Assembly (NCBI GenBank): GCA_964019695.1
Contig: OZ026530.1
Coordinates: forward strand, 35,326,835 to 35,390,834
Direction: 5' to 3'
DNA: 64,000 nucleotides
Source of the DNA: Loripinus fragilis
Lineage: Eukaryota > Mollusca > Bivalvia > Lucinida > Lucinidae
Part shown: positions 28,727-46,906 of the stretch, piece by piece
Layout: the number at the start of each line of letters is the position of its first letter
How positions within the stretch are numbered: position 1 is the first letter of the stretch
Made by a program: the position numbers and the translations under genes
The notes under the pieces: generated by a model
The model's input: the letters and a program-made list of their open reading frames with translations, nothing else
Database searches by the model: none
Told to the model about the DNA's origin: nothing

Positions 28727-28743
28727 AGTAGTAATGGATGTCA

Positions 28744-28812
28744 CTATGGCCCCATTTTTTTTTAAGCCTGAAAAGAACTTAGAATTTTTCAGGCTAAAAA
28801 ATGGGGCCATAG
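28744..28812. repeat. Terminal hairpin, left end
   Basis: CTATGGCCCCATTTTTT pairs with AAAAAATGGGGCCATAG, then AGCCTGAAAA with TTTTCAGGCT, around a loop that contains AACTTAG. The stem of roughly 30 bp starts 17 bp from the element's end. The mirror copy is at 46,821-46,889. Confidence 0.8.
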
Positions 28813-28847
28813 ATGACTACCCTGGTAGGCTTGAGTGACTAGCTGTG

Positions 28848-29378
28848 AATAACTTAGTTTATTTTTGGGGTTAATCTGACTGGGGCTATAATTTTGATAG
28901 TTTCCTGGGCTATCTGGGAATAACTTAGTTTATTATTGAGGTCTTTTCTGGTCGGGTCTATGATTGTGATAGTTTCGTGGGCTTTGAGAATAACTTAGTT
29001 TATTTTTTGAGGATTAATCTGACTCGGGCTATAATTATAATAGTTTCCTGGGCTAATGGGAAATAACTTAGTTTATTTGAGGTCTATTCTGGTCTATGAT
29101 TGTGATTATGATAAGCTCCTGGTCATATCCACTGGTTGGGTTGTGATTATATAATAGTTTCCTGGGCTAATGGGAAATAACTTAGTTTATTTGAGGTTTA
29201 TTCTGGTCTATGATTGTGATTATGATAAGCTCCTGGTCATATCCACTGGTTGGTCTGTGATTATGATTGTTTCCTGGGCTATTGGGAAATAACTTAGTCA
29301 TTTTTGAGGGGAATAAATATTCTGCTGTGGTGATATATAAAATAACTTAGTTAATTTCAGCTTTGAAAATAACTTAGT
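28848..29378. repeat. Subterminal repeats, left arm (eight AATAACTTAGT)
   Basis: AATAACTTAGT begins at 28848, 28919, 28989, 29062, 29176, 29288, 29341 and 29368. The first units lie in 70-73 bp repeats that also share CTATGATTGTGATAGTTTCC; two units are about 112-114 bp long. They may bind the integrase or replication proteins; this is inference. Confidence 0.8.
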
Positions 29379-29592
29379 CATTTTAGGGGTATAGTATGTG
29401 GTGATATATGGTGTGTGTAATAGTCAAGGCTACTAAGTACCATGCGTCTTAGAGTCTCTTGGTCAATCAAGAACTCATCTCCTAGAGGCATCACTCTGTA
29501 GCGTTAACTAGTGTATAGCTAGTCGTCTCAAGCTTACTACTACTGATTTTTTAATGAAAAGAACAACAAAGATTGGTGAACATTTCTATAAC

Positions 29593-29598
29593 TTTATT
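29593..29598 (-). terminator. Polyadenylation signal, left arm
   Basis: AATAAA on the minus strand, 86 nt beyond the protease stop and before the subterminal repeats. It probably ends the outermost left-arm transcripts. The mirror copy is at 46,035-46,040. Confidence 0.5.
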
Positions 29599-29683
29599 GC
29601 CCCGCTAACTATAACTGAATACAATGACAGAGGATTAGGGCCGTCCCTCTGTTCATTGTTTACAATAGAACTCCTTAACATAT

Positions 29684-30268
29684 TTACAACATATTATATT
29701 TAGGATACTTCTTTGAAAGGTGATGTGAATAATTATGACATTTACAAGTCTGTATTCTGTGTTTGAATAAAAAGTCAGGAGGAGCCATGCGTCTCATTCC
29801 ATTCTGGGATAGGATGACTCTGGCATAGTTATAGATGAACCACATCTCGATATCTCTGTCATTCTGGTATAAATCATCTCCAGTTCCATATAGTTCTTGA
29901 TGAATGGCTGTGTTTAGATCTAGTCCTTTGTTGAGCTGGTGAATGATGTAGATACACCAAATTCCACATACTTTGCTCCATGGACTCTGTAAACATTCTT
30001 TGTTATGGATCCATCTTGAAGAGTTTCTTTCAATAAATGGTAGAACATATTGCTCTTCTGGTGGTCTTCCATATGAATCGAAGTAGATAACTTGATCTCT
30101 TCTGAAGTAGATAGCCACCCAATGTTCTCCTGGATCTGTGGATATATCTGTATTTACAATGTAAGCCTTCATATCCAGTGGTTTCTTCTCTGGTAGTAAA
30201 TCCTTGGCACATACTTCTCCTTTCACAGGTATATTGTTTATGACTTTGATTAGTTCAACAGTGTTCAT
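29684..30268 (-). CDS. Adenain-like cysteine protease (left copy)
   Basis: 194 residues, intact. Likely active-site residues in adenain order: His49 in GEHW, Asp64 in YFDSYG, Gln94 in LQSPW and Cys101 in VCGIW. In Polintons and adenoviruses this enzyme matures virion proteins. It is the outermost gene of the arm and starts two bases after the stop of the preceding Cys/His-rich gene, consistent with a packed gene string. It differs from the right copy by one residue (Ile53 here, Phe there). The C-terminus is basic and carries a Cys/His cluster (CKCHNYSHH). Confidence 0.85.
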   Translation of the reverse strand: MNTVELIKVINNIPVKGEVCAKDLLPEKKPLDMKAYIVNTDISTDPGEHWVAIYFRRDQVIYFDSYGRPPEEQYVLPFIERNSSRWIHNKECLQSPWSKVCGIWCIYIIHQLNKGLDLNTAIHQELYGTGDDLYQNDRDIEMWFIYNYARVILSQNGMRRMAPPDFLFKHRIQTCKCHNYSHHLSKKYPKYNML

Positions 30269-30270
30269 TT

Positions 30271-30855
30271 TTATTCTGTTTCTGGGTTCTCGTTTTCTTC
30301 AGTTTCCTTTTCTTCATAGGATTCTATGAGTTTCTTGGCCCAGTACGTCTTCCACTGTTCTGTTAAGTCACTTTGATTTTTCTTGAAGTACTGCCAGTTT
30401 TTATAGGCTTCTTGATTTTCTTCTGGCGTCAGGTGATTGATCCCTGTTGTAAAGTCCATAGGGTGTCGCCAATTGTCGCCATACAGATAGTTCCAGATTC
30501 TATTGTCAAAGTCTTCCATCACATCATAGATGTTTAGGCCCTCTAAGGCTGGATCATGACATCCATAATCTTCAATCCATTCTCTTGGAGAAGTCCATAG
30601 ACAGATATCGTGGTATTTCTGACTTGGGTGGTTCATTTTGCATCCATGACATTCATGCTTCGCACAGTCTCCAACTGCCATCTTTAGACAAGTCAATATG
30701 GCTTGTTTTAGAAGAGTCTTCATAAGACAATCGATATCCTCATTGTCTTCTACTTCTTTCTGTAAGGTACTCTTCTCATCTGATGGCTGGACTGTTGCAC
30801 TGTATGCATCTGTTTGGTACATCAAGTCCTGTTCAATGAAGTATCCTGCATTCAT
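30271..30855 (-). CDS. Cys/His-rich conserved protein, function unknown (left copy)
   Basis: 194 residues, intact on this arm. A cluster at residues 64-85 (CAKHECHGCKMNHPSQ...H..C) looks metal-binding. An acidic tail (residues 178-194) ends the protein. It lies between the major capsid and protease genes, which hints at a virion or assembly role. I recognise similar clusters in other Polinton-type elements but know no assigned function. In the right arm it is cut by a stop at codon 172. Confidence 0.6.
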   Translation of the reverse strand: MNAGYFIEQDLMYQTDAYSATVQPSDEKSTLQKEVEDNEDIDCLMKTLLKQAILTCLKMAVGDCAKHECHGCKMNHPSQKYHDICLWTSPREWIEDYGCHDPALEGLNIYDVMEDFDNRIWNYLYGDNWRHPMDFTTGINHLTPEENQEAYKNWQYFKKNQSDLTEQWKTYWAKKLIESYEEKETEENENPETE

Positions 30856-30857
30856 CT

Positions 30858-32146
30858 TTAGTAATCTGTGGTAACTTCTCTAAGTCCGTTGATTTCTATC
30901 AGGTTGTCAAACTCTGCATACACAAGCACGTTGATCGTCTTGTCAAGTGATGTTGCAAACTGAAGCTCCAATCTGAGGTTCCCAGTTTTTATAGGGTGCA
31001 AATGAGACTGATCGGCTGCTTGATCTGGAGTCAAATCATATCCCCAAAAGCAGTAACCTCCTTTGTAATCTTCATAATCAATGTTGCAATTTTGGACCTG
31101 ATTCTGACTTGCTAATGCTTGGTAAACTGATAGTATCTGAGATACTGATCATTTTCAAATCTAGGTTCAAATGGTTTTCCATAGACACTATGTCCATCAC
31201 AAGTGACATCCATTTTACTTAGATTGAAATGTTGGAAAAAGAAAGGATTAGTATCCAAATTCCCATTAAATGCCTCATTTGTTACTAAACCAATAAAAAC
31301 TCGTTTTGGAAGTTGACCTGTGAGAAGATGATCTTCAATTTTAGATCTTGTGCCACTACTGATTGTAAAAGTTTTGACTTCAACTCTTCTGATTAGAAAT
31401 TTAGCATTATGATGAGCAATAGTTTGATTCAGTTCATTGCTAATGGCTGGTAGAAGCTGAACATTTCGTACTCTCAAGATAGCAGTATCAATTTTGATTT
31501 TTGCAGGATAATTATCACTCATCGAACAAAACTGAGGAGATGATCGATTAAGTCTAAGTTTGAATTCTAAGCCATTAGGTAAATATTTTTCCTGCATAGC
31601 AAGATCCAAATGTAATTTACCCTGAAGCTCCACGGATTTGCTTTTTGCTATGCGTTTGCCACGATCAGTGATAGATGCATTTGTTATATCTTCAAAAGCT
31701 CCAGCTTCATCCTCAGACCAAAATTCTGCTGCCTTCAGTTGATTATCTTTGACATCAGAACCATAAGAAAATAAATTTTCAAGGTATGCTCTGTATGGAT
31801 ACGTGTCTGAATTATTTGTGATCAATTTATTGTTGATATACAAATCTATGCCACTGAACATACTATGAAAAAAGTTATTAATTGGAAATACTTTTGCATC
31901 CGTGTCAAGATCTTCACCCGTTTGCTTTAAGATTCGGAATTTGATATACAGATAGGCTTGAGATAAATCAGTGTAAAACTCAGTGTGAGGTGGAATTAGA
32001 AATTCAATGGGTGCATGATGACTATCGAGAGAAGCGATGGGATGATAATCATTCCACTGAGTGCCTTGCATGGTAGTCATGGTGGGTGGAATGGATTCCA
32101 TATCCAATTCCGTTTTAGTGCAATCGCAAGAACCTTGTTGAATCAT
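30858..32146 (-). pseudogene. Probable major capsid protein, frameshifted (left copy)
   Basis: Matches the intact 430-residue right-arm copy up to about residue 330. There a net 4-bp deletion near 31,130 shifts the frame and ends it after a few wrong residues, so the last ~97 codons are out of frame. Three other residue changes separate it from the right copy. Start MIQQGSCDC overlaps the previous gene's stop by four bases (ATGA). Confidence 0.8.
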
Positions 32147-32592
32147 TTTTCGTCAAATATATCTCTTTCAAATACCAGACGTTTAATTGGATTAAACCTT
32201 TTTGCTCTGCTTTTAAAACCCGTCTTAACAGTTCGGTGTCTAGATTGAGACTGAGGCTTTTTGCGTTTTTGAGTTGAATTTATAGCCAACTGATTTATAG
32301 TAGACTGACCAAAAGATTTCAAAGCTGTTTTTCCTCTTTGTTTTAAAACTTTTTTTACATTTTCACCACCCACAATATCTTTAAGAGCTTGAATCCCTTG
32401 ATCTTTAGCTACTTTTTTCACACTTTTTAAACTTGCTTTTGCGACAGGTTTTAAAATTGGAATCACTGTTCTCAATGCAGCTTTAAAAATGGATCCTAAA
32501 CCATTGCCATATTGTCTTGAAACGCCTCTGTACACGGGAAAGTCTCCTTTCCCAGATTGAAGAGACATAATACTTCTGGATTGTTTCAACAT
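32143..32592 (-). CDS. Basic pVI/X-like virion protein (left copy)
   Basis: 149 residues. An N-terminal GKGDFPVYRG motif is followed by an amphipathic, Lys-rich helix region (about 34-75) and a strongly basic tail with RKKPQSQSRHR. Small proteins with an amphipathic segment and basic tail resemble adenovirus pVI/pX, which bind the capsid interior or DNA. This match is by architecture only. A second in-frame Met nine codons in (MSLQSGKG) is an equally good start. The gene overlaps the capsid gene by ATGA and shares TAATG with the gene before it. Confidence 0.55.
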   Translation of the reverse strand: MLKQSRSIMSLQSGKGDFPVYRGVSRQYGNGLGSIFKAALRTVIPILKPVAKASLKSVKKVAKDQGIQALKDIVGGENVKKVLKQRGKTALKSFGQSTINQLAINSTQKRKKPQSQSRHRTVKTGFKSRAKRFNPIKRLVFERDIFDEK

Positions 32593-33413
32593 TATTCCTT
32601 CTGTCGAAAATGTAGTTTCACTAACGTTTTCCCAGAGATAAATGGCACATTTTCACCTGTATCACCTTTTATACTAATGTGCACCTGATCTATGAAAGAT
32701 TTTGCCACTGGAACGTAGTGTACATTGACAAATTCTTGATGTAAATGATTGTTTTCTCTTTTACTTTCAAATGGCAATACTCTCAAAATAGGTGCAGTAA
32801 CATCACCAATAAATGTATAACTTGCTAAATCAGAGTAAATGTAAAGTTGATGAATTTTTGTATTCAAATCCACACCATATCTGAAAATGTATTTTTCATT
32901 TCCTACTGGTTTATCAAAATGATTTCTATCTACACCTAATATTTCTGCAATTGCCTTTGGAAAAATAATTTTGACTTTCGTAGGATCTTGAACATCAAGT
33001 TTGACTCGAGCACTGTTTTCGCCATAAGTGATTGAAATGGTAGCATTGCTATTTTTCAGTGTCAGTCCATATCGAAAATTGATACTTTTTTGAATTTCTT
33101 CAACTAAGTGGCGTGGAGAAGCATAATAACCATTTTGGATATAGATTTTTTGGTCTACATATGATACATTTTTTGTACAGTTATCAATGTCTTCACACAT
33201 TTTTCTATCAGTAAATCTTAAGATCACATAATTGTTTTCTTTTGTGATATTATTTACTTCAGTTGGAGTTATGACTTCTACCAAACCCACTTCCCAATTG
33301 TCTTTTTCAATTTGTATGGAATGATCTAATTTCACTTTAAAGTCACATTGCGTATTTTTTGAAAATGTACTGAGTGAACTATCACTCAAGAGTGTCAAAT
33401 AAAAGTTATTCAT
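32592..33413 (-). CDS. Probable minor capsid (penton-like) protein (left copy)
   Basis: 273 residues. It begins MNNFYLTLLSDSS, then a WEVGLVEV segment (about 41-48), and is predicted rich in beta strands with few charged clusters, as for a single jelly-roll capsid protein. This N-terminal pattern is common to proteins of Polinton-like elements. The assignment as penton is inference from family context and its place next to the capsid genes. It differs from the right copy at two residues close together (Thr/Ile, Asn/Tyr near residue 80). Confidence 0.55.
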   Translation of the reverse strand: MNNFYLTLLSDSSLSTFSKNTQCDFKVKLDHSIQIEKDNWEVGLVEVITPTEVNNITKENNYVILRFTDRKMCEDIDNCTKNVSYVDQKIYIQNGYYASPRHLVEEIQKSINFRYGLTLKNSNATISITYGENSARVKLDVQDPTKVKIIFPKAIAEILGVDRNHFDKPVGNEKYIFRYGVDLNTKIHQLYIYSDLASYTFIGDVTAPILRVLPFESKRENNHLHQEFVNVHYVPVAKSFIDQVHISIKGDTGENVPFISGKTLVKLHFRQKE

Positions 33414-33721
33414 GGTTTGAGTTTGGGTGAATCTGTTTCGTCAGCAGAAATTGGATTAGTTTGTTTTCTAAATTTTAAACCTGGGGATGGTAGTATGTAA
33501 CCGATAGAACTACTGAGTAAAATTAACCACAATTCTTTATCTGGACTTCTCAGACTGATTTGAACTAGTGATGTGACAATGATCATGTATACAACAATGA
33601 TCTGAGCAAAAAAAAAGAAACGATTTTTAACAATTCGATCACGACCTTCTGCAGATTGTACTGAAGCAGTGTCACCACGTACAAATGATCCTCTGAGATC
33701 CATTTTCATGCTTTTATACAA
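33410..33721 (-). CDS. Two-span membrane protein (left copy)
   Basis: 103 residues with hydrophobic segments at about 35-57 and 63-78 separated by a short RSPDKE loop. The N-terminal side is basic (RDRIVKNR). The start overlaps the end of the integrase gene and the stop overlaps the next gene by ATGA. Met7 is a plausible alternative start. Polintons commonly carry a small membrane protein; its job is unknown. One residue differs from the right copy (Phe/Thr near 36). Confidence 0.6.
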   Translation of the reverse strand: MYKSMKMDLRGSFVRGDTASVQSAEGRDRIVKNRFFFFAQIIVVYMIIVTSLVQISLRSPDKELWLILLSSSIGYILPSPGLKFRKQTNPISADETDSPKLKP

Positions 33722-34784
33722 GATCAGATTCTAAAATCCAACTATCAAATTTTGAAGGATAACCTTTCCAGTGAACTTTAATTTCTTTCACCAACTTTTT
33801 TCATACTTTATGTTTTCTGTGATCTAAAACAGAATCAATTTCGTAAATTTGATCTTTCTCTACACGTTGTAACTCGTGTGAATAGAAAGTGCCTTTGACT
33901 AATTCACCCTCAAGATCTTTTATTTTATAGGTGAAAGGAGTCTGAGTTTTGACCACTGCTAAAATTTGAAATAATTCTTGTGTCCAATTTGGTAAATAAC
34001 CTTTATCAAATGTGCGTTTTGTTTTATTGATACGCACAAAATCATTCACTTTGAATTTTGGTTTGACTTTTTTAGAATTTGATTTTCCATATAAGTTTTC
34101 TCACACCTGTGGTTCATTTTTAAGAGTCACAGACACAGGTGCACATTTAATACTTCGATGATAAGCGTGATTGTAACCATGTACTAATTTGGGAAGAATG
34201 TCTACATATCGCAAAGTGCGATGATGAGTAAAATATTTCCACATGCGAGTTTTCAAAGTTCTTTGAAAACGTTCCACAATACTGGCTTTGGTTTCAGGAT
34301 TTTCAGTAGTGAAGAAATGAATCTTTTTAGTTTTCAAGAAATTTTGAAATTCTTTATTTTTGAATTCAGTTCCTTTATCTGTTTGCAAACTTTTTGGACA
34401 TCGTCCACTTTTTAACACAGATTTGAAAGCAATCACTAAAGTTTTCCCAGTTTTATCTTTAATAGGTACCACCCATGCATATTTTGAAAATACATCTATG
34501 ATGCAAAGTAAATATCTATGTTTGTCATTGAACTTTGATAATTTTGATAAGTCTGCCAAATCTGCTTGCCATTGAGTATCAATTCCAGCCACTACCGTTT
34601 TGCGTCGCAAAAACTTTTTATGAATAGGTTTATGTAAAGTATAAGTTTGTTGTTTTCTTAACCAGTCTCTAATATCTTGAAGTTTTACTTTTTTGGATGA
34701 TTGTTTAGCAAGTTTGTACAAAGCTTGTTCACCTGCATACGCAGCAGGACTTTTAGGATTGTAATACAACTGTTCAAGCTTCAT
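33714..34784 (-). pseudogene. DDE integrase with chromodomain-like tail, two stops (left copy)
   Basis: Retroviral-type integrase that would join element ends to host DNA. The catalytic core is intact: Asp75 (QADLAD), Asp136 (QTDKGTE) and Glu171 (ASIVERF), with D-60-D-34-E spacing. Two nonsense changes break the C-terminal part: one after NEPQV (34,101) and one after HRKHKV (33,801). Both codons are sense in the right copy. The tail beyond holds the chromodomain-like VHWKGYPSKFDSWI. The organisation matches the Polinton c-integrase (C. elegans F54H12.3 type). It overlaps the preceding gene by 11 bp. Confidence 0.85.
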
Positions 34785-35589
34785 TGTAACTGACCCATGG
34801 AGAAGAAAACTCTTCTTTTATACGTTTTTTGGTGGCAGATAAAAGTGCCGGAGAGGAAAAATGGTCTTTGATACGTTTTCTGACACTCAAACTCTTTGCA
34901 GACCTGACAGAAACAGGAATACGACTTGCTGTTTTTCTGATGGTGCGTTTTTGTTTGGGAGTAATATAATCAGTTTCAGGAGTTTCTGGAGCACGATGCA
35001 TCCAGTCCCACCTTTCCCTATTTCCAATGACATCTTGGGGAATATTCATGTCTCTTAAACCTTCTGCAAAAGCTTGCCAACCTGTAGGTTCACTGCCTTT
35101 AAGATGTCTGATGACATCATTGACCAAATCAATAATATTAGACCCTGGAATAGATTTGCCATAAAGTTTAACTGTACCATCATCTTCCCAGGACACATTT
35201 GGGTTAGTTTTTAGAAGTGAAACTAAAAGCTGAGCTTTACGTTTCATAGTGGAAGGCACACTATCTATGACCAATTGATTCATTTTGGAAGAACTAGGGT
35301 CAGATTGGGGAAAAAGAGATGTTTCTTTTAAAGCTTTTTGATGAGCTGTCTTAAATTTGTGCAAGGTTTGGCCATACAATTGAGATTTTTCAGCTTCAGA
35401 CAAATCTTCATTGGCCATGACAGAAGATAAGTCTCTTTGAAGACTGGCTGTGGCAGATACATTAGGATCAGGAGGCAGTCTGGGCTTTTGAATTTGTTCC
35501 TCTTTCCATCGTTTCATGTCTTCCCAAAGTTTAAATGGCACAATAGCCATTTTACGACCATCCATATTTTTATTTTTTGATGATTTCAC
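34774..35589 (-). CDS. Conserved Polinton-type protein, function unknown (left copy)
   Basis: Up to 271 residues; Met9 (MDGRKMAIVPF) is the likelier start because the first codons lie inside the preceding gene. It has a central conserved-looking block, PGSNIIDLVNDVIRH...GWQAFAEGL...IGNRERWDW (about 150-205), and a basic Ser/Arg-rich tail. I recognise the central block from proteins in cnidarian and other invertebrate Polinton-like elements, but no function is known to me. Two residues differ from the right copy. Confidence 0.6.
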   Translation of the reverse strand: MKSSKNKNMDGRKMAIVPFKLWEDMKRWKEEQIQKPRLPPDPNVSATASLQRDLSSVMANEDLSEAEKSQLYGQTLHKFKTAHQKALKETSLFPQSDPSSSKMNQLVIDSVPSTMKRKAQLLVSLLKTNPNVSWEDDGTVKLYGKSIPGSNIIDLVNDVIRHLKGSEPTGWQAFAEGLRDMNIPQDVIGNRERWDWMHRAPETPETDYITPKQKRTIRKTASRIPVSVRSAKSLSVRKRIKDHFSSPALLSATKKRIKEEFSSPWVSYNEA

Positions 35590-35962
35590 CCAAGACAGAG
35601 CCTATGATAGGAGCAATTAATGGTTTTAATATTAATCCTAACAAGGCTCCACCTTTCTGATTAATAATTTTCTTTTTTGTGTCAAGTGGAACTTGCTTAG
35701 AACTCAGTAAACGTATATGTTGCTTTCTAGCTCGTAACTGATTCTTTTGAGCATTTGTCAGACGTACATTGCCTTTTATAAGATTGATGCAACATTCCCC
35801 TACACAATCAATGACTTCTTTAGGAGATTCTTGAATCATTTTCTTACGACATTTATTGGATAAATGAGTCAATCCTTCCAAAAATGTACCATAAGTTTTA
35901 ATCAAAGATTTTTTTCTCATTTTATTTTGCAATTTTCTACGACGTGTTGTTGTTACAGCCAT
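35570..35962 (-). CDS. Small basic helical protein, C-terminal Gly-Gly hydrophobic tail (left copy)
   Basis: 130 residues. An N-terminus rich in Lys/Arg (TTRRRKLQNKMRKK), a helical middle with CCINLIKGNVRLT, then GGALLGLILKPLIAPIIG at the end. It shares this plan with the 110-residue protein at 36,327-36,659, so the two look like paralogues. A structural or DNA-packing role in the virion is plausible. A TATA-like sequence CTATAAAAGG lies about 40 bp before the ATG. Confidence 0.55.
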   Translation of the reverse strand: MAVTTTRRRKLQNKMRKKSLIKTYGTFLEGLTHLSNKCRKKMIQESPKEVIDCVGECCINLIKGNVRLTNAQKNQLRARKQHIRLLSSKQVPLDTKKKIINQKGGALLGLILKPLIAPIIGSVLGEIIKK

Positions 35963-36012
35963 GTTTATGAGTGTGTTTATAATTTAAATGTACAGTCCTT
36001 TTATAGTTTTTC

Positions 36013-36330
36013 TTAAAAATGAAGTCGTCGACGTTCAGAATGAGGTGGCGAAGGATATTTGTTTGGATTTAACATGTGCATGGTAGCACCAAATCCATGT
36101 CTTTTTAACAAATCTTGTGCTCTCAAAGGAGTAAATCTTGCTAAATTAATAGAAGATCGTCTTGCATTTGTGTTTGGAGAATCAAGACCTAAATTTTGCC
36201 ATGAAGCAGGACTTTTACTTTTACGTTTTGTTACAAAACGATCATCAACCTTTCTTTTTTTCTGTTTTCTTGGTTTTTTCACTGATTTTTTCTTAGGTTT
36301 TTTAGTTTTCTTGTTAAATTTTCTCATCAA
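36013..36330 (-). CDS. Lys/Arg-rich small protein, core-protein candidate (left copy)
   Basis: 105 residues, intact on this arm. About 40 of the first 60 residues are polar or basic (KKTKKPKKKSVKKPRKQKKR), then RRSSINLARFTPLRAQDLL. Such composition suits nucleic-acid condensation, as for adenovirus core proteins, but there is no specific match. It overlaps the preceding gene by four bases. The right copy is frameshifted in an A-run. Confidence 0.5.
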   Translation of the reverse strand: MMRKFNKKTKKPKKKSVKKPRKQKKRKVDDRFVTKRKSKSPASWQNLGLDSPNTNARRSSINLARFTPLRAQDLLKRHGFGATMHMLNPNKYPSPPHSERRRLHF

Positions 36331-36692
36331 TTATTTCCATCCCATCGAATCAGACTTCGAATGATCACACCACCAAAGAATCCACCACCTCCAGGTTTTA
36401 AAATGATACTACTTTTGACTTCAGGATCAACAATTGCACTTGCTAATTTTCGAACATCATCCTGATGTCTATCCATAAATTTTTGAGTTTGTTTAGGTAA
36501 TTTCATCTTACCCTGAACAATTTTTCGAGCTGCCAAAGAAAACCATTTGATCATTTCAATTAAACCTGCATTTAAGAGTGATTTTCTTTTATGACTATCA
36601 TGTTCTCTGCTTAAATTATACAGAGCACGTATCAGATTAGCTGATGTTCGTTGAGCCATTTTGACACAAATGATGAATTTGAACTCAAACAC
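36327..36692 (-). CDS. Small helical protein with Gly-rich tail (left copy)
   Basis: The open frame has 121 codons, but MAQRTSANL (from 36,659) is the likelier start because a TATAAAAAG sequence lies about 40 bp before it, overlapping the ATPase stop. The 110-residue product has a helical body with KIVQGKMKLPKQTQKF and ends with GGGGFFGGVIIRSLI. It resembles the 130-residue protein further out. Four residues differ from the right copy (Asp/Glu, His/Tyr, Asp/Asn, Ser/Arg). Confidence 0.55.
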   Translation of the reverse strand: MFEFKFIICVKMAQRTSANLIRALYNLSREHDSHKRKSLLNAGLIEMIKWFSLAARKIVQGKMKLPKQTQKFMDRHQDDVRKLASAIVDPEVKSSIILKPGGGGFFGGVIIRSLIRWDGNN

Positions 36693-36698
36693 ACCTTT

Positions 36699-37397: not shown

Positions 37398-37429
37398 GGT
37401 TAACTGTGAAAAAATTACAAAGACAACTT

Positions 37430-38232: not shown

Positions 38233-38931
38233 ATGGCACTTTCTACACACCAGTTGGACTCAAATCAAGATATTGGAAGTTTGTTTTTTAAACATCCTTC
38301 TAATATTTTTATTTCTGGTCCAAGTGGATCGGGTAAAACTGAATTTGTTAAAAAGATGATTGAGTTTAAAGAAGATTTATTTGATATTTTACCCCAACGA
38401 ATTGTTTGGTGTTACAAGGAATGGCAAAAATCTTATAATATCTTACAAGAACGTGAAGGGTCAAACATCAAATTTATTCAAGGTATTCCCGATGATGAAG
38501 ATGAAATTGTCACTGATCCCAGTGCAACGCACTTGGTGATTTTTGATGACATGTTAGGAGATAAAGATGAAGAAAAAATTAAGTTATGGTTTACTAGAAA
38601 AGGACATCATAGAAACGCAAGTGTGGTGTACATCACTCAAAATTTATTTCAACAAAGTAAATCTTCTCGCACCATCAGTTTAAATGCTCATTATTTAGTT
38701 TTATTTCAAAGTCCAAGAGATAAGATGCAAATCAAAGTATTAGCAAATCAACTTCAAGCTCCACATATGATTCATGCATTTAACGATGCCACATCTATAC
38801 CTCATGGATACTTATTGGTCGATTTGAAACCAAATACACCTGATTATCTTAGATTCAGAACACATATTTTTCAAAACTGGTTTACAAAATCAGATCAACA
38901 AGGACCTGTTGTCTATTTTCCAGGAGTATAA
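38233..38931 (+). CDS. A32/FtsK-type packaging ATPase (right copy)
   Basis: 232 residues, the same protein as the left copy over its full length, which makes it the best conserved gene between the arms. The gene runs toward the right end of the element. Its stop codon is embedded in the TATAAAAAG box of the next gene, a sign of how tightly the arm is packed. Confidence 0.85.
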   Translation: MALSTHQLDSNQDIGSLFFKHPSNIFISGPSGSGKTEFVKKMIEFKEDLFDILPQRIVWCYKEWQKSYNILQEREGSNIKFIQGIPDDEDEIVTDPSATHLVIFDDMLGDKDEEKIKLWFTRKGHHRNASVVYITQNLFQQSKSSRTISLNAHYLVLFQSPRDKMQIKVLANQLQAPHMIHAFNDATSIPHGYLLVDLKPNTPDYLRFRTHIFQNWFTKSDQQGPVVYFPGV

Positions 38932-38936
38932 AAAGG
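38928..38936 (+). promoter_or_regulatory. TATA box overlapping the ATPase stop
   Basis: TATAAAAAG, about 40 bp before MAQRTSANL at 38,971. The same arrangement exists in mirror form at 36,694-36,702. Confidence 0.5.
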
Positions 38937-38970
38937 TGTGTTTGAGTTCAAATTCATCATTTGTGTCAAA

Positions 38971-39303
38971 ATGGCTCAACGAACATCAGCTAATCTGATA
39001 CGTGCTCTGTATAATTTAAGCAGAGAACATGATAGTCATAAAAGAAAATCACTCTTAAATGCAGGTTTAATTGAAATGATCAAATGGTTTTCTTTGGCAG
39101 CTCGAAAAATTGTTCAGGGTAAGATGAAATTACCTAAACAAACTCAAAAATTTATGGAAAGATATCAGAATGATGTTCGAAAATTAGCAAGTGCAATTGT
39201 TGATCCTGAAGTCAAACGTAGTATCATTTTAAAACCTGGAGGTGGTGGATTCTTTGGTGGTGTGATCATTCGAAGTCTGATTCGATGGGATGGAAATAAT
39301 TGA
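38971..39303 (+). CDS. Small helical protein with Gly-rich tail (right copy)
   Basis: 110 residues from MAQRTSANL; an in-frame upstream Met at 38,938 lies too close to the TATA box to be used by the same transcript. It carries Glu, Tyr, Asn and Arg at the four positions that differ from the left copy, all in the 70-100 region. It overlaps the following gene start by four bases. Confidence 0.55.
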   Translation: MAQRTSANLIRALYNLSREHDSHKRKSLLNAGLIEMIKWFSLAARKIVQGKMKLPKQTQKFMERYQNDVRKLASAIVDPEVKRSIILKPGGGGFFGGVIIRSLIRWDGNN

Positions 39304-39618
39304 TGAGAAAATTTAACAAGAAAACTAAAAAACCTAAGAAAAAATCAGTGAACAAACCAAGAAAACAGAAAAAAAAGAAAGGTTGATGATCGTTTTGTAA
39401 CAAAACGTAAAAGTAAAAGTCCTGCTTCATGGCAAAATTTAGGTATTGATTCTCCAAACACAAATGCAAGACGATCTTCTATTAATTTAGCAAGATTTAC
39501 TCCTTTGAGAGCACAAGATTTGTTAAAAAGACATGGATTTGGTGCTACCATGCACATGTTAAATCCAAACAAATATCCTTCGCCACCTCATTCTGAACGT
39601 CGACGACTTCATTTTTAA
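39300..39618 (+). pseudogene. Lys/Arg-rich protein, frameshifted (right copy)
   Basis: An extra A in the run at about 39,369-39,376 (eight A here, seven in the left arm) shifts the frame near codon 28, and a stop follows almost at once. Two other differences from the left copy are Lys/Asn and Leu/Ile. A homopolymer sequencing error cannot be excluded. Confidence 0.65.
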
Positions 39619-39625
39619 GAAAAAC

Positions 39626-39634
39626 TATAAAAGG
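39626..39634 (+). promoter_or_regulatory. TATA box before the 130-residue protein gene
   Basis: CTATAAAAGG, 43 bp before the ATG at 39,669. It is conserved in the left arm. Confidence 0.45.
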
Positions 39635-39668
39635 ACTGTACATTTAAATTATAAACACACTCATAAAC

Positions 39669-40061
39669 ATGGCTGTAACAACAACACGTCGTAGAAAATT
39701 GCAAAATAAAATGAGAAAAAAATCTTTGATTAAAACTTATGGTACATTTTTGGAAGGATTGACTCATTTATCCAATAAATGTCGTAAGAAAATGATTCAA
39801 GAATCTCCTAAAGAAGTCATTGATTGTGTAGGGGAATGTTGCATCAATCTTATAAAAGGCAATGTACGTCTGACAAATGCTCAAAAGAATCAGTTACGAG
39901 CTAGAAAGCAACATATACGTTTACTGAGTTCTAAGCAAGTTCCACTTGACACAAAAAAAAAAATTATTAATCAGAAAGGTGGAGCCTTGTTAGGATTATT
40001 ATTAAAACCATTAATTGCTCCTATCATAGGCTCTGTCTTGGGTGAAATCATCAAAAAATAA
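39669..40061 (+). CDS. Small basic helical protein, C-terminal Gly-Gly tail (right copy)
   Basis: 130 residues, one difference from the left copy (Leu for Ile in GGALLGL.LKP). The next gene starts inside its last codons. The length and tail match the left copy, so both appear complete. Confidence 0.55.
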   Translation: MAVTTTRRRKLQNKMRKKSLIKTYGTFLEGLTHLSNKCRKKMIQESPKEVIDCVGECCINLIKGNVRLTNAQKNQLRARKQHIRLLSSKQVPLDTKKKIINQKGGALLGLLLKPLIAPIIGSVLGEIIKK

Positions 40062-40857
40062 AAATATGGATGGTCGTAAAATGGCTATTGTGCCATTTAA
40101 ACTTTGGGAAGACATGAAACGATGGAAAGAGGAACAAATTCAAAAGCCCAGACTGCCTCCTGATCCTAATGTATCTGCCACAGCCAGTCTTCAAAGAGAC
40201 TTATCTTCTGTCATGGCCAATGAAGATTTGTCTGAAGCTGAAAAATCTCAATTGTATGGCCAAACCTTGCACAAATTTAAGACAGCTCATCAAAAAGCTT
40301 TAAAAGAAACATCTCTTTTTCCCCAATCTGACCCTAGTTCTTCCAAAATGAATCAATTGGTCATAGATAGTGTGCCTTCCACTATAAAACGTAAAGCTCA
40401 GCTTTTAGTTTCACTTCTAAAAACTAACCCAAATGTGTCCTGGGAAGATGATGGTACAGTTAAACTTTATGGCAAATCTATTCCAGGGTCTAATATTATT
40501 GATTTGGTCAATGATGTCATCAGACATCGTAAAGGCAGTGAACCTACAGGTTGGCAAGCTTTTGCAGAAGGTTTAAGAGACATGAATATTCCCCAAGATG
40601 TCATTGGAAATAGGGAAAGGTGGGACTGGATGCATCGTGCTCCAGAAACTCCTGAAACTGATTATATTACTCCCAAACAAAAACGCACAATCAGAAAAAC
40701 AGCAAGTCGTATTCCTGTTTCTGTCAGGTCTGCAAAGAGTTTGAGTGTCAGAAAACGTATCAAAGACCATTTTTCCTCTCCGGCACTTTTATCTGCCACC
40801 AAAAAACGTATAAAAGAAGAGTTTTCTTCTCCATGGGTCAGTTACAATGAAGCTTGA
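40042..40857 (+). CDS. Conserved Polinton-type protein, function unknown (right copy)
   Basis: 271 codons (263 from MDGRKM), intact. It carries Ile and Arg where the left copy has Met and Leu. The run RKTASRIPVSVRSAKSL near residue 230 is Ser/Arg-rich and could contact nucleic acid, though this is only composition. The integrase gene begins 11 bp before its stop. Confidence 0.6.
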   Translation: MKSSKNKNMDGRKMAIVPFKLWEDMKRWKEEQIQKPRLPPDPNVSATASLQRDLSSVMANEDLSEAEKSQLYGQTLHKFKTAHQKALKETSLFPQSDPSSSKMNQLVIDSVPSTIKRKAQLLVSLLKTNPNVSWEDDGTVKLYGKSIPGSNIIDLVNDVIRHRKGSEPTGWQAFAEGLRDMNIPQDVIGNRERWDWMHRAPETPETDYITPKQKRTIRKTASRIPVSVRSAKSLSVRKRIKDHFSSPALLSATKKRIKEEFSSPWVSYNEA

Positions 40858-41915
40858 ACAGTTGTATTACAATCCTAAAAGTCCTGCTGCGTATGCAGGT
40901 GAACAAGCTTTGTACAAACTTGCTAAACAATCATCCAAAAAAGTAAAACTTCAAGATATTAGAGACTGGTTAAGAAAACAACAAACTTATACTTTACATA
41001 AACCTATTCATAAAAAGTTTTTGCGACGCAAAACGGTAGGCTGGAATTGATACTCAATGGCAAGCAGATTTGGCAGACTTATCAAAATTATCAAAGTTCA
41101 ATGACAAACATAGATATTTACTTTGCATCATAGATGTATTTTCAAAATATGCGTGGGTGGTACCTATTAAAGATAAAACTGGGAAAACTTTAGTGATTGC
41201 TTTCAAATCTGTGTTAAAAAGTGGACGATGTCCAAAAAGTTTGCAAACAGATAAAGGAACTGAATTCAAAAATAAAGAATTTCAAAATTTCTTGAAAACT
41301 AAAAAGATTCATTTCTTCACTACTGAAAATCCTGAAACCAAAGCCAGTATTGTGGAACGTTTTCAAAGAACTTTGAAAACTCGCATGTGGAAATATTTTA
41401 CTCATCATCGCACTTTGCGATATGTAGACATTCTTCCCAAATTAGTACATGGTTACAATCACGCTTATCATCGAAGTATTAAATGTGCACCTGTGTCTGT
41501 GACTCTTAAAAATGAACCACAGGTGTCAGAAAACTTATATGGAAAATCAAATTCTAAAAAAGTCAAACCAAAATTCAAAGTGAATGATTTTGTGCGTATC
41601 AATAAAACAAAACGCACATTTGATAAAGGTTATTTACCAAATTGGACACAAGAATTATTTCAAATTTTAGCAGTGGTCAAAACTCAGACTCCTATCACCT
41701 ATAAAATAAAAGATCTCGAGGGTGAATTAGTCAAAGGCACTTTCTATTCACACGAGTTACAACGTGTAGAGAAAGATCAAATTTACGAAATTGATTCTGT
41801 TTTAGATCACAGAAAACATAAAGTAGGAAAAAAGTGGGTGAAAGAAATTAAAGTTCACTGGAAAGGTTATCCTTCAAAATTTGATAGTTGGATTTTAGAA
41901 TCTGATCTTGTATAA
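40847..41915 (+). pseudogene. DDE integrase, 2-bp deletion (right copy)
   Basis: Frame one runs 40,847-41,050 and ends after ...RRKTV. A 2-bp deletion near 41,035, relative to the left arm, throws the remainder into another frame, open from 41,070 to 41,915. That remainder holds the catalytic Asp-Asp-Glu set and an unbroken chromodomain-like tail (HWKGYPSKFDSWILESDLV). The damage therefore lies just before the catalytic core here, whereas in the left arm it lies after it. Neither arm has a complete integrase frame. Confidence 0.85.
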
Positions 41916-42219
41916 AAGCATGAAAATGGATCTCAGAGGATCATTTGTACGTGGTGACACTGCTTCAGTACAATCTGCAGAAGGTCGTGATCGAATTGTT
42001 AAAAATCGTTTCACTTTTTTTGCTCAGATCATTGTTGTATACATGATCATTGTCACATCACTAGTTCAAATCAGTTTGAGAAGTCCAGATAAAGAATTGT
42101 GGTTAATTTTACTCAGTAGTTCTATCGGTTACATACTACCATCCCCAGGTTTAAAATTTAGAAAACAAACTAATCCAATTTCTGCTGACGAAACAGATTC
42201 ACCCAAACTCAAACCATGA
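41908..42219 (+). CDS. Two-span membrane protein (right copy)
   Basis: 103 residues with the same two hydrophobic spans as the left copy. The first span starts one residue less hydrophobic (Thr for Phe). It overlaps the integrase frame at its start and the next gene by ATGA at its end. Confidence 0.6.
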   Translation: MYKSMKMDLRGSFVRGDTASVQSAEGRDRIVKNRFTFFAQIIVVYMIIVTSLVQISLRSPDKELWLILLSSSIGYILPSPGLKFRKQTNPISADETDSPKLKP

Positions 42220-43037
42220 ATAACTTTTATTTGACACTCTTGAGTGATAGTTCACTCAGTACATTTTCAAAAAATACGCAATGTGACTTTAAAGTGAAAT
42301 TAGATCATTCCATACAAATTGAAAAAGACAATTGGGAAGTGGGTTTGGTAGAAGTCATAACTCCAACTGAAGTAAATAATATCACAAAAGAAAACAATTA
42401 TGTGATCTTAAGATTTACTGATAGAAAAATGTGTGAAGACATTGATAACTGTATAAAGTATGTATCATATGTAGACCAAAAAATCTATATCCAAAATGGT
42501 TATTATGCTTCTCCACGCCACTTAGTTGAAGAAATTCAAAAAAGTATCAATTTTCGATATGGACTGACACTGAAAAATAGCAATGCTACCATTTCAATCA
42601 CTTATGGCGAAAACAGTGCTCGAGTCAAACTTGATGTTCAAGATCCTACGAAAGTCAAAATTATTTTTCCAAAGGCAATTGCAGAAATATTAGGTGTAGA
42701 TAGAAATCATTTTGATAAACCAGTAGGAAATGAAAAATACATTTTCAGATATGGTGTGGATTTGAATACAAAAATTCATCAACTTTACATTTACTCTGAT
42801 TTAGCAAGTTATACATTTATTGGTGATGTTACTGCACCTATTTTGAGAGTATTGCCATTTGAAAGTAAAAGAGAAAACAATCATTTACATCAAGAATTTG
42901 TCAATGTACACTACGTTCCAGTGGCAAAATCTTTCATAGATCAGGTGCACATTAGTATAAAAGGTGATACAGGTGAAAATGTGCCATTTATCTCTGGAAA
43001 AACGTTAGTGAAACTACATTTTCGACAGAAGGAATAA
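42216..43037 (+). CDS. Probable minor capsid (penton-like) protein (right copy)
   Basis: 273 residues, intact, Ile and Tyr at the two variable positions. The stop shares TAATG with the next start, a coupling arrangement repeated in the mirror arm and unusual for eukaryotic host genes. Confidence 0.55.
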   Translation: MNNFYLTLLSDSSLSTFSKNTQCDFKVKLDHSIQIEKDNWEVGLVEVITPTEVNNITKENNYVILRFTDRKMCEDIDNCIKYVSYVDQKIYIQNGYYASPRHLVEEIQKSINFRYGLTLKNSNATISITYGENSARVKLDVQDPTKVKIIFPKAIAEILGVDRNHFDKPVGNEKYIFRYGVDLNTKIHQLYIYSDLASYTFIGDVTAPILRVLPFESKRENNHLHQEFVNVHYVPVAKSFIDQVHISIKGDTGENVPFISGKTLVKLHFRQKE

Positions 43038-43486
43038 TGTTGAAACAATACAGAAGTATTATGTCTCTTCAATCTGGGAAAGGAGACTTTCCCGTGTACA
43101 GAGGCGTTTCAAGACAATATGGCAATGGTTTAGGATCCATTTTTAAAGCTGCATTGAGAACAGTGATTCCAATTTTAAAACCTGTCGCAAAAGCAAGTTT
43201 AAAAAGTGTGAAAAAAGTAGCTAAAGATCAAGGGATTCAAGCTCTTAAAGATATTGTGGGTGGTGAAAATGTAAAAAAAGTTTTAAAACAAAGAGGAAAA
43301 ACAGCTTTGAAATCTTTTGGTCAGTCTACTATAAATCAGTTGGCTATAAATTCAACTCAAAAACGCAAAAAGCCTCAGTCTCAATCTAGACACCGAACTG
43401 TTAAGACGGGTTTTAAAAGCAGAGCAAAAAAGTTTAATCCAATTAAACGTCTGGTATTTGAAAGAGATATATTTGACGAAAAATGA
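43037..43486 (+). CDS. Basic pVI/X-like virion protein (right copy)
   Basis: 149 residues, two substitutions from the left copy (Tyr for Ser at 5, Lys for Arg near 133). The Gly-rich N-terminal motif before an amphipathic helix would suit cleavage by the arm's own adenain-like protease, but no cleavage site can be shown from sequence alone. Confidence 0.55.
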   Translation: MLKQYRSIMSLQSGKGDFPVYRGVSRQYGNGLGSIFKAALRTVIPILKPVAKASLKSVKKVAKDQGIQALKDIVGGENVKKVLKQRGKTALKSFGQSTINQLAINSTQKRKKPQSQSRHRTVKTGFKSRAKKFNPIKRLVFERDIFDEK

Positions 43487-44775
43487 TTCAACAAGGTTCT
43501 TGCGATTGCACTAAAACGGAATTGGATATGGAATCCATTCCACCCACCATGACTACCATGCAAGGCACTCAGTGGAATGATTATCATCCCATCGCTTCTC
43601 TCGATAGTCATCATGCACCCATTGAATTTCTAATTCCACCTCACACTGAGTTTTACACTGATTTATCTCAAGCCTATCTGTATATCAAATTCCGAATCTT
43701 AAAGCAAACGGGTGAAGATCTTGACACGGATGCAAAAGTATTTCCAATTAATAACATTTTTCATAGTATGTTCAGTGGCATAGATTTGTATATCAACAAT
43801 AAATTGATCACAAATAATTCAGACACGTATCCATACAGAGCATACCTTGAAAATTTATTTTCTTATGGTTCTGATGTCAAAGATAATCAACTGAAGGCAG
43901 CAGAATTTTGGTCTGAGGATGAAGCTGGAGCTTTTGAAGATATAACAAATGCATCTATCACTGATCGTGGCAAACGCATAGCAAAAAGCAAATCCGTGGA
44001 GCTTCAGGGTAAATTACATTTGGATCTTGCTATGCAGGAAAAATATTTACCTAATGGCTTAGAATTCAAACTTAGACTTAATCGATCATCTCCTCAGTTT
44101 TGTTTGATGAGTGATAATTATCCTGCAAAAATCAAAATTGATACTGCTATCTTGAGAGTACGAAATGTTCAGCTTCTACCAGCCATTAGCAATGAACTGA
44201 ATCAAACTATTGCTCATCATAATGCTAAATTTCCAATCAGAAGAGTTGAAGTCAAAACTTTTACAATCAGTAGTGGCACAAGATCTAAAATTGAAGATCA
44301 TCTTCTCACAGGTCAACTTCCAAAACGAGTTTTTATTGGTTTAGTAACAAATGAGGCATTTAATGGGAATTTGGATACTAATCCTTTCTTTTTCCAACAT
44401 TTCAATCTAAGTAAAATGGATGTCACTTGTGATGGACATAGTGTCTATGGAAAACCATTTGAACCTAGATTTGAAAATGATCAGTATCTCAGATCTTTCC
44501 TATCAGTTTACCAAGCATTAGCAAGTCAGAATCAGGTCCAAAATTGCAACATTGATTATGAAGATTACAAAGGAGGTTACTGCTTTTGGGGATATGATTT
44601 GACTCCAGATCAAGCAGCCGATCAGTCTCATTTGCACCCTATAAAAACTGGGAACCTCAGATTGGAGCTTCAGTTTGCAACATCACTTGACAAGACGATC
44701 AACGTGCTTGTGTATGCAGAGTTTGACAACCTGATAGAAATCAACGGACTTAGAGAAGTTACCACAGATTACTAA
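43483..44775 (+). CDS. Probable double-jelly-roll major capsid protein, F54H12.2-like (right copy)
   Basis: 430 residues, intact. It has an N-terminal WNDYHPIASLD...PIEFLIPPHTEFYTDLSQ segment, then a beta-rich body with SGIDLYINNKLI and YPYRAYLENLFSYG, and a C-terminal half with LRLELQFATSLD. This family is widespread in invertebrate genomes under the name F54H12.2-like. Reading it as the Polinton capsid shell protein rests on its size, beta-rich pattern, single-copy place among virion genes and co-occurrence with the F54H12.3-type integrase; it is not proven here. Three residues differ from the readable part of the left copy. Confidence 0.7.
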   Translation: MIQQGSCDCTKTELDMESIPPTMTTMQGTQWNDYHPIASLDSHHAPIEFLIPPHTEFYTDLSQAYLYIKFRILKQTGEDLDTDAKVFPINNIFHSMFSGIDLYINNKLITNNSDTYPYRAYLENLFSYGSDVKDNQLKAAEFWSEDEAGAFEDITNASITDRGKRIAKSKSVELQGKLHLDLAMQEKYLPNGLEFKLRLNRSSPQFCLMSDNYPAKIKIDTAILRVRNVQLLPAISNELNQTIAHHNAKFPIRRVEVKTFTISSGTRSKIEDHLLTGQLPKRVFIGLVTNEAFNGNLDTNPFFFQHFNLSKMDVTCDGHSVYGKPFEPRFENDQYLRSFLSVYQALASQNQVQNCNIDYEDYKGGYCFWGYDLTPDQAADQSHLHPIKTGNLRLELQFATSLDKTINVLVYAEFDNLIEINGLREVTTDY

Positions 44776-44777
44776 AG

Positions 44778-45362
44778 ATGAATGCAGGATACTTCATTGA
44801 ACAGGACTTGATGTACCAAACAGATGCATACAGTGCAACAGTCCAGCCATCAGATGAGAAGAGTACCTTACAGAAAGAAGTAGAAGACAATGAGGATATC
44901 GATTGTCTTATGACGACTCTTCTAAAACAAGCCATATTGACTTGTCTAAAGATGGCAGTTGGAGACTGTGCGAAGCATGAATGTCATGGATGCAAAATGA
45001 ACCACCCAAGTCAGAAATACCACGATATCTGTCTATGGACTTCTCCAAGAGAATGGATTGAAGATTATGGATGTCATGATCCAGCCTTAGAGGGCCTAAA
45101 CATCTATGATGTGATGGAAGACTTTGACAATAGAATCTGGAACTATCTGTATGGCGACAATTGGCGACACCCTATGGACTTTACAACAGGGATCAATCAC
45201 CTGACGCCAGAAGAAAATCAAGAAGCCTATAAAAACTGGCAGTACTTCAAGAAAAATCAAAGTGACTTAACAGAACAGTGGAAGACGTACTAGGCAAAGA
45301 AACTCATAGAATCCTATGAAGAAAAGGAAACTGAAGAAAACGAGAACCCAGAAACAGAATAA
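44778..45362 (+). pseudogene. Cys/His-rich protein with premature stop (right copy)
   Basis: A TAG at 45,291-45,293 (TGG on the left arm) ends the frame after 171 codons. The remaining 23 codons, including the acidic tail, are still in frame beyond it. The metal-binding-like cluster is intact, so a truncated product might still fold. Confidence 0.7.
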
Positions 45363-45364
45363 AA

Positions 45365-45949
45365 ATGAACACTGTTGAACTAATCAAAGTCATAAACAAT
45401 ATACCTGTGAAAGGAGAAGTATGTGCCAAGGATTTACTACCAGAGAAGAAACCACTGGATATGAAGGCTTACATTGTAAATACAGATATATCCACAGATC
45501 CAGGAGAACATTGGGTGGCTTTCTACTTCAGAAGAGATCAAGTTATCTACTTCGATTCATATGGAAGACCACCAGAAGAGCAATATGTTCTACCATTTAT
45601 TGAAAGAAACTCTTCAAGATGGATCCATAACAAAGAATGTTTACAGAGTCCATGGAGCAAAGTATGTGGAATTTGGTGTATCTACATCATTCACCAGCTC
45701 AACAAAGGACTAGATCTAAACACAGCCATTCATCAAGAACTATATGGAACTGGAGATGATTTATACCAGAATGACAGAGATATCGAGATGTGGTTCATCT
45801 ATAACTATGCCAGAGTCATCCTATCCCAGAATGGAATGAGACGCATGGCTCCTCCTGACTTTTTATTCAAACACAGAATACAGACTTGTAAATGTCATAA
45901 TTATTCACATCACCTTTCAAAGAAGTATCCTAAATATAATATGTTGTAA
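45365..45949 (+). CDS. Adenain-like cysteine protease (right copy)
   Basis: 194 residues, intact, with His49, Asp64, Gln94 and Cys101 all present. The start ATG follows the sequence AATAAAA after the preceding gene's stop. Phe53 replaces Ile53 next to the active-site His segment. Confidence 0.85.
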   Translation: MNTVELIKVINNIPVKGEVCAKDLLPEKKPLDMKAYIVNTDISTDPGEHWVAFYFRRDQVIYFDSYGRPPEEQYVLPFIERNSSRWIHNKECLQSPWSKVCGIWCIYIIHQLNKGLDLNTAIHQELYGTGDDLYQNDRDIEMWFIYNYARVILSQNGMRRMAPPDFLFKHRIQTCKCHNYSHHLSKKYPKYNML

Positions 45950-46034
45950 ATATGTTAAGGAGTTCTATTGTAAACAATGAACAGAGGGACGGCCCTAATC
46001 CTCTGTCATTGTATTCAGTTATAGTTAGCGGGGC

Positions 46035-46040
46035 AATAAA
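46035..46040 (+). terminator. Polyadenylation signal, right arm
   Basis: AATAAA 86 nt after the protease stop, before the subterminal repeats. It fits a shared 3' end for outward transcripts of this arm. Confidence 0.5.
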
Positions 46041-46254
46041 GTTATAGAAATGTTCACCAATCTTTGTTGTTCATTTCATTAAAAAATCAGTAGTAGTAAG
46101 CTTGAGACGACTAGCTATACACTAGTTAACGCTACAGAGTGATGCCTCTAGGAGATGAGTTCTTGATTGACCAAGAGACTCTAAGACGCATGGTACTTAA
46201 TAGCCTTGACTATTACACACACCATATATCACCACATACTATACCCCCTAAAAT

Positions 46255-46785
46255 GACTAAGTTATTTTCAAAGCTGAAATTAACTAAGTTATTTTATATA
46301 TCACCACAGCAGAATCTTTATTCCCCTCAAAAATGACTAAGTTATTTCCCAATAGCCCAGGAAACAATCATAATCACAGACCAACCAGTGGATATGACCA
46401 GGAGCTTATCATAATCACAATCATAGACCAGAATAGACCTCAAATAAACTAAGTTATTTCCCATTAGCCCAGGAAACTATTATAATCACAACCCAACCAG
46501 TGGATATGACCAGGAGCTTATCATAATCACAATCATAGACCAGAATAGACCTCAAATAAACTAAGTTATTTCCCATTAGCCCAGGAAACTATTATAATTA
46601 TAGCCCGAGTCAGATTAATCCTCAAAAAATAAACTAAGTTATTCTCAATAGCCCACGAAACTATCACAATCATAGACCCGACCAGAAAAGACCTCAATAA
46701 TAAACTAAGTTATTCCCAGATAGCCCAGGAAACTATCACAATTATAGCCCCAGTCAGATTAACCCCAAAAATAAACTAAGTTATT
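46255..46785. repeat. Subterminal repeats, right arm (eight ACTAAGTTATT)
   Basis: Mirror of 28,848-29,378, with the same spacing pattern. Confidence 0.8.
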
Positions 46786-46820
46786 CACAGCTAGTCACTC
46801 AAGCCTACCAGGGTAGTCAT

Positions 46821-46889
46821 CTATGGCCCCATTTTTTAGCCTGAAAAATTCTAAGTTCTTTTCAGGCTTAAAAAAAAATGGGGCCATAG
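46821..46889. repeat. Terminal hairpin, right end
   Basis: Inverted counterpart of 28,744-28,812, with CTATGGCCCCATTTTTT and AAAAATGGGGCCATAG as stem. The last 17 bp of the element follow. Confidence 0.8.
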
Positions 46890-46906
46890 TGACATCCATT
46901 ACTACT

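Follow-up and report, generated by a model that had tools for sequence, protein, structure and literature searches.

A palindromic Polinton in the genome of the bivalve Loripinus fragilis, probably an integrated copy-back genome

Palindromic derivatives of terminal-protein replicons are reportedly represented by Ad12 SYREC (symmetric defective genomes of an adenovirus) and by the yeast hairpin plasmids derived from pGKL1; neither of these is an integrated transposon, unlike the element described here. This element is a palindromic Polinton (Maverick, polintovirus) of 18,180 bp, which lies in a window of 64,000 nucleotides (C19:35,326,835-35,390,834 of the 1.99-Gb assembly) of the lucinid Loripinus fragilis. 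A target-site duplication (TSD) of 6 bp is the rule in Polintons, and their replication has, to our knowledge, to date been inferred from genes. According to PMC8235507, populations of adeno-associated virus (AAV) include snapback genomes (SBG), either symmetric or with an unpaired loop, of which 5′-SBG carry a part of rep and 3′-SBG the capsid region. The system described here shares with them the self-complementary derivatives of one genome moiety and the existence of a replication-gene class and a capsid class, whereas AAV is a parvovirus with hairpin-primed, packaged molecules and the window element belongs to the PolB family and is integrated with a TSD. For pAL2-1, an invertron-type linear plasmid of Podospora with a terminal protein, PMC1864894 suggests racquet or panhandle replication intermediates as a possible cause of long inverted repeats at integration sites. 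Those repeats consist of host mitochondrial DNA around the insert, whereas in the window the mirror comprises the element itself and leaves out the host flanks. Among the papers listed by searches of an open-access library (subscription papers were outside the scope), none was found to describe a palindromic Polinton in its title or abstract, in agreement with the first-pass annotation of the window, which knew of none.

Comparison of the window with itself (BLASTN) gave one full-length inverted match at positions 28727-46906 (18,197 columns, 99.3% identity). The left arm (28727..37797, minus strand) has 9,071 bp and the right arm (37833..46906, plus strand) 9,074 bp, and a 35-bp spacer (37798..37832, plus strand) separates them. 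The first-pass annotation had proposed that the gene coordinates mirror about 37,815, which the inverted self-match confirmed, and that the inverted repeat is the whole 18.2 kb except 35 bp, which is correct at the base level; the sums of the mirrored coordinates drift from 75,630 to 75,633 because small indels separate the arms. Of the 9,067 aligned positions, 41 (0.45%) carry a substitution between the arms, namely 19 transitions and 22 transversions, and there are 11 gap columns. Within eight open reading frames (ORFs) of equal length, 6 of the differences are synonymous and 15 non-synonymous, a pattern that looks like unconstrained decay after the arms had arisen.

The element starts with AGTAGTAATGG and ends with CCATTACTACT, which are Polinton termini, and a perfect TSD, CCTGTA (6/6 bp), is present on both sides (28721..28726 and 46907..46912, plus strand). 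The insertion target is a 55-bp minisatellite (detected with Tandem Repeats Finder, TRF), the left part of which occupies 28106..28726 and which continues in the same orientation at 46907..47176. CTGTA recurs in 55-bp steps beside the insertion on both flanks, and 220 bp of the flanks joined in silico matched neighbouring minisatellite units with no gap (best 88.6%). The flanks thus run in the same direction to the left and right of the palindrome and are not mirrored, whereas a mirrored read or a host-level inverted duplication should have mirrored them as well. Together with the termini and the TSD, this means that the palindrome behaves as one insertion, not as an assembly join, and it entered the locus as one insertion. 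A tandem array with a unit of ~164 bp lies just outside the element (window positions 48080-49690).

A full-length relative with each gene once and with PolB was found in the same genome at C17:79,919,978-79,934,700 (14,723 bp). This ordinary copy, read as two unjoined pieces (L052 and L057), has the TSD TATATC on both sides and also fits the 6-bp rule. It consists of a left terminal repeat, small ORFs, PolB (PF03175, E 1.9e-46) and then the gene row of one arm, and it is 97% identical to the window element over the shared gene row. Its distance to the two window arms is about equal (2.56% and 2.64%). The element had been described as of about normal Polinton length, which does not hold against this only ordinary relative measured, since 18,180 bp is 1.23 times its length. 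In their first 187 bp, the left and right terminal repeats of the ordinary copy have an identity of only about 83% (one copy, with intact TSD).

The two arms turn within PolB. The inner stem CAAAGTGAA (37789..37797, plus strand), natural in PolB, is complementary to the inner stem TTCACTTTG (37833..37841, plus strand) 35 bases downstream, and the two are a natural 9-bp inverted repeat with single-copy PolB sequence as the loop. The spacer pattern (52 bp, at most 3 mismatches) occurs at 416 places in the genome, and the spacer is therefore ordinary PolB. At all the other fetched loci with this pattern (38/38), the sequence reads through the stem into an upstream sequence unlike that of the window. 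Ordinary copies have the spacer contiguous with the right arm, not with the left one. In the window, the normal sequence upstream of the CAAAGTGAA junction is swapped for the inverse of the downstream side, so that the left arm is the copy-back arm at the junction and the right arm is continuous with the spacer as in ordinary Polintons. The left-junction pattern (at most 3 mismatches) was found at 1 place in 1.99 Gb, in the window alone, and with the central 1,031 bp as DNA query only the window matched end to end among the best 40 of 454 candidates scored. Only 2 inverted repeats with a loop no longer than 60 reach a stem length of 9 or more in the 3,495 bp of PolB scanned in the ordinary copy (mean of 0.8 in 20 shuffles), and the turn of the window is one of them. 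The features of a copy-back genome are present in the window element: the arms come from one template, the single-copy loop is contiguous with one arm in the parent, and the turn is at a short inverted repeat (9-bp stem, 35-nt loop).

We consider it probable that the window element is an integrated copy-back (snapback) Polinton genome which folded during protein-primed replication, before integration. Protein-primed synthesis would begin at the right terminus of an ordinary Polinton, and the strand would pass the genes of the protease, the capsid protein, the integrase and the ATPase before entering PolB. There the growing 3′ end would fold back on its own strand at the 9-bp inverted repeat and would be extended to its own 5′ end, producing a hairpin with the right terminus at the open end. 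A further round of terminal initiation would open the hairpin to a linear duplex, a palindrome both ends of which are of the right type, and an integrase, probably that of an intact relative, would insert this molecule with a 6-bp TSD. PolB-bearing relatives, which might serve as intact helpers, are present in the genome. Similar events at other turn points may have made the other palindromes of the genome.

Such palindromes, with their own TSDs, do occur. The protease pattern was found at 419 places, and the 100 listed include one divergent pair within 20 kb. This pair is a second virion-gene palindrome (C2:49,124,000-49,141,080, designated C2:49.12; 17,081 bp, TSD TGCTCC, 6/6), read at the centre (3.1 kb) and at both ends (1 kb each). 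Its centre is just outside the PolB stop. The host flanks of C2:49.12 (L075 and L076) are partly inverted repeats of each other, and this element may therefore have entered host hairpin sequence. The search with the 1.3-kb protease region (best 40 of 1,431 candidates scored) showed the two copies of the window as mutual best matches and no other close pair among the 40 loci; C2:49.12 is missing from these 40, and therefore the list does not count palindromes.

More palindromes belong to a PolB-module class, in which the whole stretch between the start of the ATPase gene and the terminal-repeat array is deleted, with one deletion joint in common. Two pattern searches across this joint gave 18 places each and 21 in union. 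Sixteen of the 21 sites form 8 divergent pairs, 2.0-19.7 kb apart, with all arms pointing outward; the remaining sites are one divergent pair 38 kb apart (according to positions alone) and three singles. Seven of the eight pairs were read in part (C2:48.41 without its full centre), and C5:83.56 is represented by positions only. TSDs were read for two of the eight pairs and for a ninth element, C2:56.54, the PolB middles being mostly unread. C11:25.97 has about 19.5 kb and the TSD CATCTA/CACCTA (5/6), and C10:11.25 has 14,325 bp and the TSD CACAAG (6/6). C2:56.54, which is of the PolB-module class and was not matched by the joint pattern, has 6.7 kb, the TSD GCCAAA (6/6), a 648-bp PolB loop and a unique junction; it is the one of 20 spacer loci, taken in list order, that is palindromic within 1.5 kb.

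The arm divergence was 0.69%-1.58% in six PolB-module palindromes and 0.88% in C2:49.12 (stretches of 0.9-2.0 kb), vs 0.45% over the whole window element, and the palindromes are therefore probably of different age. The turn points of the PolB-module palindromes differ, and no shared centre was found among the centres compared, all of which differ; propagation as a palindrome is therefore unproved. In a tree based on 875 bp, the arms of C10:11.25 were sisters with full support and those of C11:25.97 with 89/90, and sisterhood of the arms of C11:41.83 and C10:55.60 was not separated from grouping with a near sibling. The tree includes only one ordinary row, and a single origin of the PolB-module class is therefore beyond its reach. 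Some copies of this class are not palindromes, as follows from the single marker sites: L077 (C2:135.20 Mb) and L079 (C9:49.61 Mb) are small copies with internal deletions, made up of terminal-repeat arrays around PolB fragments, and L078 showed no palindrome in the 2.75 kb read. The mirrored arms of C9:5.25 measure just 128 bp in the stretch read.

The palindromes have two near-identical ends. When the terminal 180 bp on the left were compared with those on the right, the five palindromes read at both ends showed 0, 0, 1, 3 and 3 substitutions, one of them also 4 gap columns; the ordinary C17 copy (n=1) showed 26, together with 8 gap columns. Several palindromes in one genome suggest that Polintons are here copied outside the chromosome and occasionally fold back before insertion.

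Several points speak against the copy-back interpretation or narrow its basis. The inverted-repeat scan covered only the left piece of the ordinary copy (6,023 bp), and this piece holds 6 repeats with a stem of at least 9 (shuffled mean 1.7), including stems of 15 and 10, so that the turn is not at the strongest repeat of the element. A search for the reciprocal product, a left-end palindrome turning at the 9-bp repeat used by the window element, did not find it; the lone place matched (3 mismatches) reads as ordinary sequence. Among the palindromes, the link of the turn point to a strong inverted repeat was seen for the window alone: the turn of C2:56.54 has at most a few bases of micro-homology, and the centre of C2:49.12 is itself a hairpin with no natural counterpart found. 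For the comparison of ends, both termini were read in a single ordinary copy. The assumption of protein priming derives from the Polinton family, and a genome sequence alone shows no replication intermediate, hairpin or virion. Finally, a chromosomal fold-back could yield a similar product.

This last point leads to the rival that survives best, a change after integration. An ordinary Polinton would have been inserted first; later, at the repeat in PolB, a chromosomal break or a fold-back of the fork would have overwritten its left part with the right one in inverse orientation. Such a change keeps the TSD and the locus, the 9-bp repeat is equally usable for repair or fork template switching, and the finished structure alone does not divide the timing before insertion from that after it. 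On the other hand, each such event would have had to copy up to precisely the final base of the terminal repeat, and the event would have to recur at different turn points. The near-identical outer 180 bp in 5/5 palindromes, unlike those of the one ordinary copy, also argue against it, as does the finding that none of the PolB-start loci of the ordinary type forms an inverted pair (best 40 of 838 candidates scored, query included). We therefore regard a post-integration origin as unlikely. An assembly artefact (a hairpin read, a missed adapter or collapsed inverted copies) deserves hardly any credence, although long palindromes are a recognized assembly hazard, since the mirror stops exactly at the termini, next to a TSD and unmirrored flanks, the arms have accumulated ordinary mutations (substitutions and small indels), and the other palindromes have other TSDs and more divergent arms. 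Two Polintons inserted tail to tail or nested, followed by a deletion, are just as improbable: hundreds of copies in the genome (see the 416 spacer and 419 protease sites) make chance neighbours possible, but there is a single outer TSD pair, no terminal repeat at the centre, which is one contiguous PolB stretch, and none of the 38 other copies scored in the 1.3-kb protease region is as close to either arm as the arms are to each other.

The integrated copy-back genome remains the preferred explanation, since a single type of event would account for all these observations; protein priming, the hairpin intermediate and folding before integration are its inferred parts. As a further step, the mirror genomes with virion and integration genes but no polymerase (the window element and C2:49.12) and the PolB-module class with the polymerase but no virion genes might constitute a lasting split system, an idea that is tentative and, in our view, rather doubtful. 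If it were true, self-complementary genomes would be heritable, would fold anew whenever they replicate and would be mobilized by enzymes held in common, and would not be only dead accidents.

The gene content was compared with that of Polintons as given in PMC4028283 and PMC6431247, and the right-arm gene copies were used for the searches against Pfam-type domains. The element shares with Polintons the RVE integrase, an A32-like ATPase, a probable adenovirus-type protease, a double jelly-roll capsid fold, terminal inverted repeats and the 6-bp TSD. It differs from an ordinary Polinton by the presence of only a tail of PolB, by a terminal repeat which comprises the whole arm and by virion genes doubled in mirror order. 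The packaging-type ATPase (38185..38931, plus strand; Pox_A32, E 3.3e-6; mirror copy 36699-37445, minus strand) is of the FtsK/A32 type (PF04665, 27.2 bits, cut-off 22.8). The RVE integrase with a chromodomain (41040..41915, plus strand; PF00665 and PF00385) scored 47.2 bits with PF00665 (cut-off 32.6); its frame is broken in both arms, upstream of the domain-bearing part in the right arm and by division into two frames in the left one (33801-34817, minus strand). The cysteine protease (45335..45949, plus strand; Peptidase_C5, E 0.0013; mirror copy 29684-30298, minus strand) is a candidate adenovirus-type protease, with a PF00770 score of 18.9 bits just below the cut-off of 21.3. A 282-aa ORF (42189..43037, plus strand; mirror copy 32592-33440, minus strand) gave no family match and is, judging from its position, a candidate minor capsid protein.

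The 432-aa protein encoded at 43477..44775 (plus strand) is predicted to be the major capsid protein (MCP) with a double jelly-roll fold. Its sequence gave no match in Pfam, NCBIfam or PDB sequences, and the fold alone was informative: the AlphaFold2 model (mean predicted local distance difference test, pLDDT, 71) had its best PDB fold matches in the MCPs of Sputnik (E 9.0e-17) and mavirus (E 2.7e-16). The frame is intact in the right arm only, the left copy (30858-32152, minus strand) being split into two frames. Among the relatives of this capsid protein, a named Mercenaria protein is 54% identical to it, and proteins of oysters reach about 42%. A 75%-identical capsid protein is found in a metagenome-assembled genome named Candidatus Thiodiazotropha, a bacterium, where the gene is probably animal host DNA. 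The best E-value for the capsid model in the viral library was obtained with the Cotesia bracovirus protein R9XLG5 (function unknown); identity was 30% and the TM-scores were only 0.36 and 0.32, a match which hints that bracovirus DNA may contain a Polinton capsid gene.

Only the last codons of PolB (37789..38029, plus strand) are present, with an open frame to 38029, as the first-pass annotation had read them. This tail gave no family match in the window, and its sequence continues the PolB frame of the ordinary C17 copy (L052). The protein-primed PolB of Polintons is thus represented by its tail only, and the element is therefore a non-autonomous derivative and not a complete Polinton. The first-pass annotation had also assigned integration and virion genes to each arm: they are present in both, but not all in working order, as the integrase is broken in both arms and the capsid gene is whole in just the right one. 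Its description of a real, self-complementary, polymerase-less Polinton is supported by the mirror, the termini, the TSD and the PolB tail. The turn at a natural inverted repeat of PolB and the recurrence of palindromes in the genome were not among its observations.

Other loci were noted in the course of these searches. At C2:109,539,856-109,545,197, three opposite-strand segment pairs, all with coordinate sums of 219,085,053, have the left side outward; according to these positions, the locus is a candidate left-end palindrome. The palindrome candidates with ends still unread are this locus (C2:109.54), C11:41.83, C148, C10:55.60, C2:48.41, C5:83.56 and C9:5.25. L050 and L051 were rejected as spacer palindromes, as their middles are not palindromic in 4 kb, except for 0.6 kb at 74% in L051; they are PolB-module marker pairs with long intervening DNA. 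L049 was considered as a host-level inverted duplication around a transposon and was rejected, since most of its central part is common to the other copies of its subfamily and the element has its own termini. The spacer copies at C5:8.15 Mb are 4.5 kb apart on one strand and form a tandem array, not a palindrome. This array (L058, C5:8,145,500-8,151,000, with spacer matches up to 8,159,875) consists of a 4,544-bp PolB-ATPase fragment; four same-strand spacer matches occur at unit spacing, and 957 comparable bp of two units are identical. Two PolB-start copies on the same strand, 4 kb apart (C567:3,591,395 and 3,595,355), are possibly another tandem duplication.

A copy-back genome found integrated, with a clean scar, would preserve in fossil form an extrachromosomal replication step, linear, end-initiated and strand-displacing, and the integration that came after it. 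Any long-read genome can be screened for palindromes, so that the question can be tested by counting. The palindromes found here also suggest that integration does not require two different ends of a Polinton and that a virus-like element can reach the germ line in the form of a defective, self-complementary genome.

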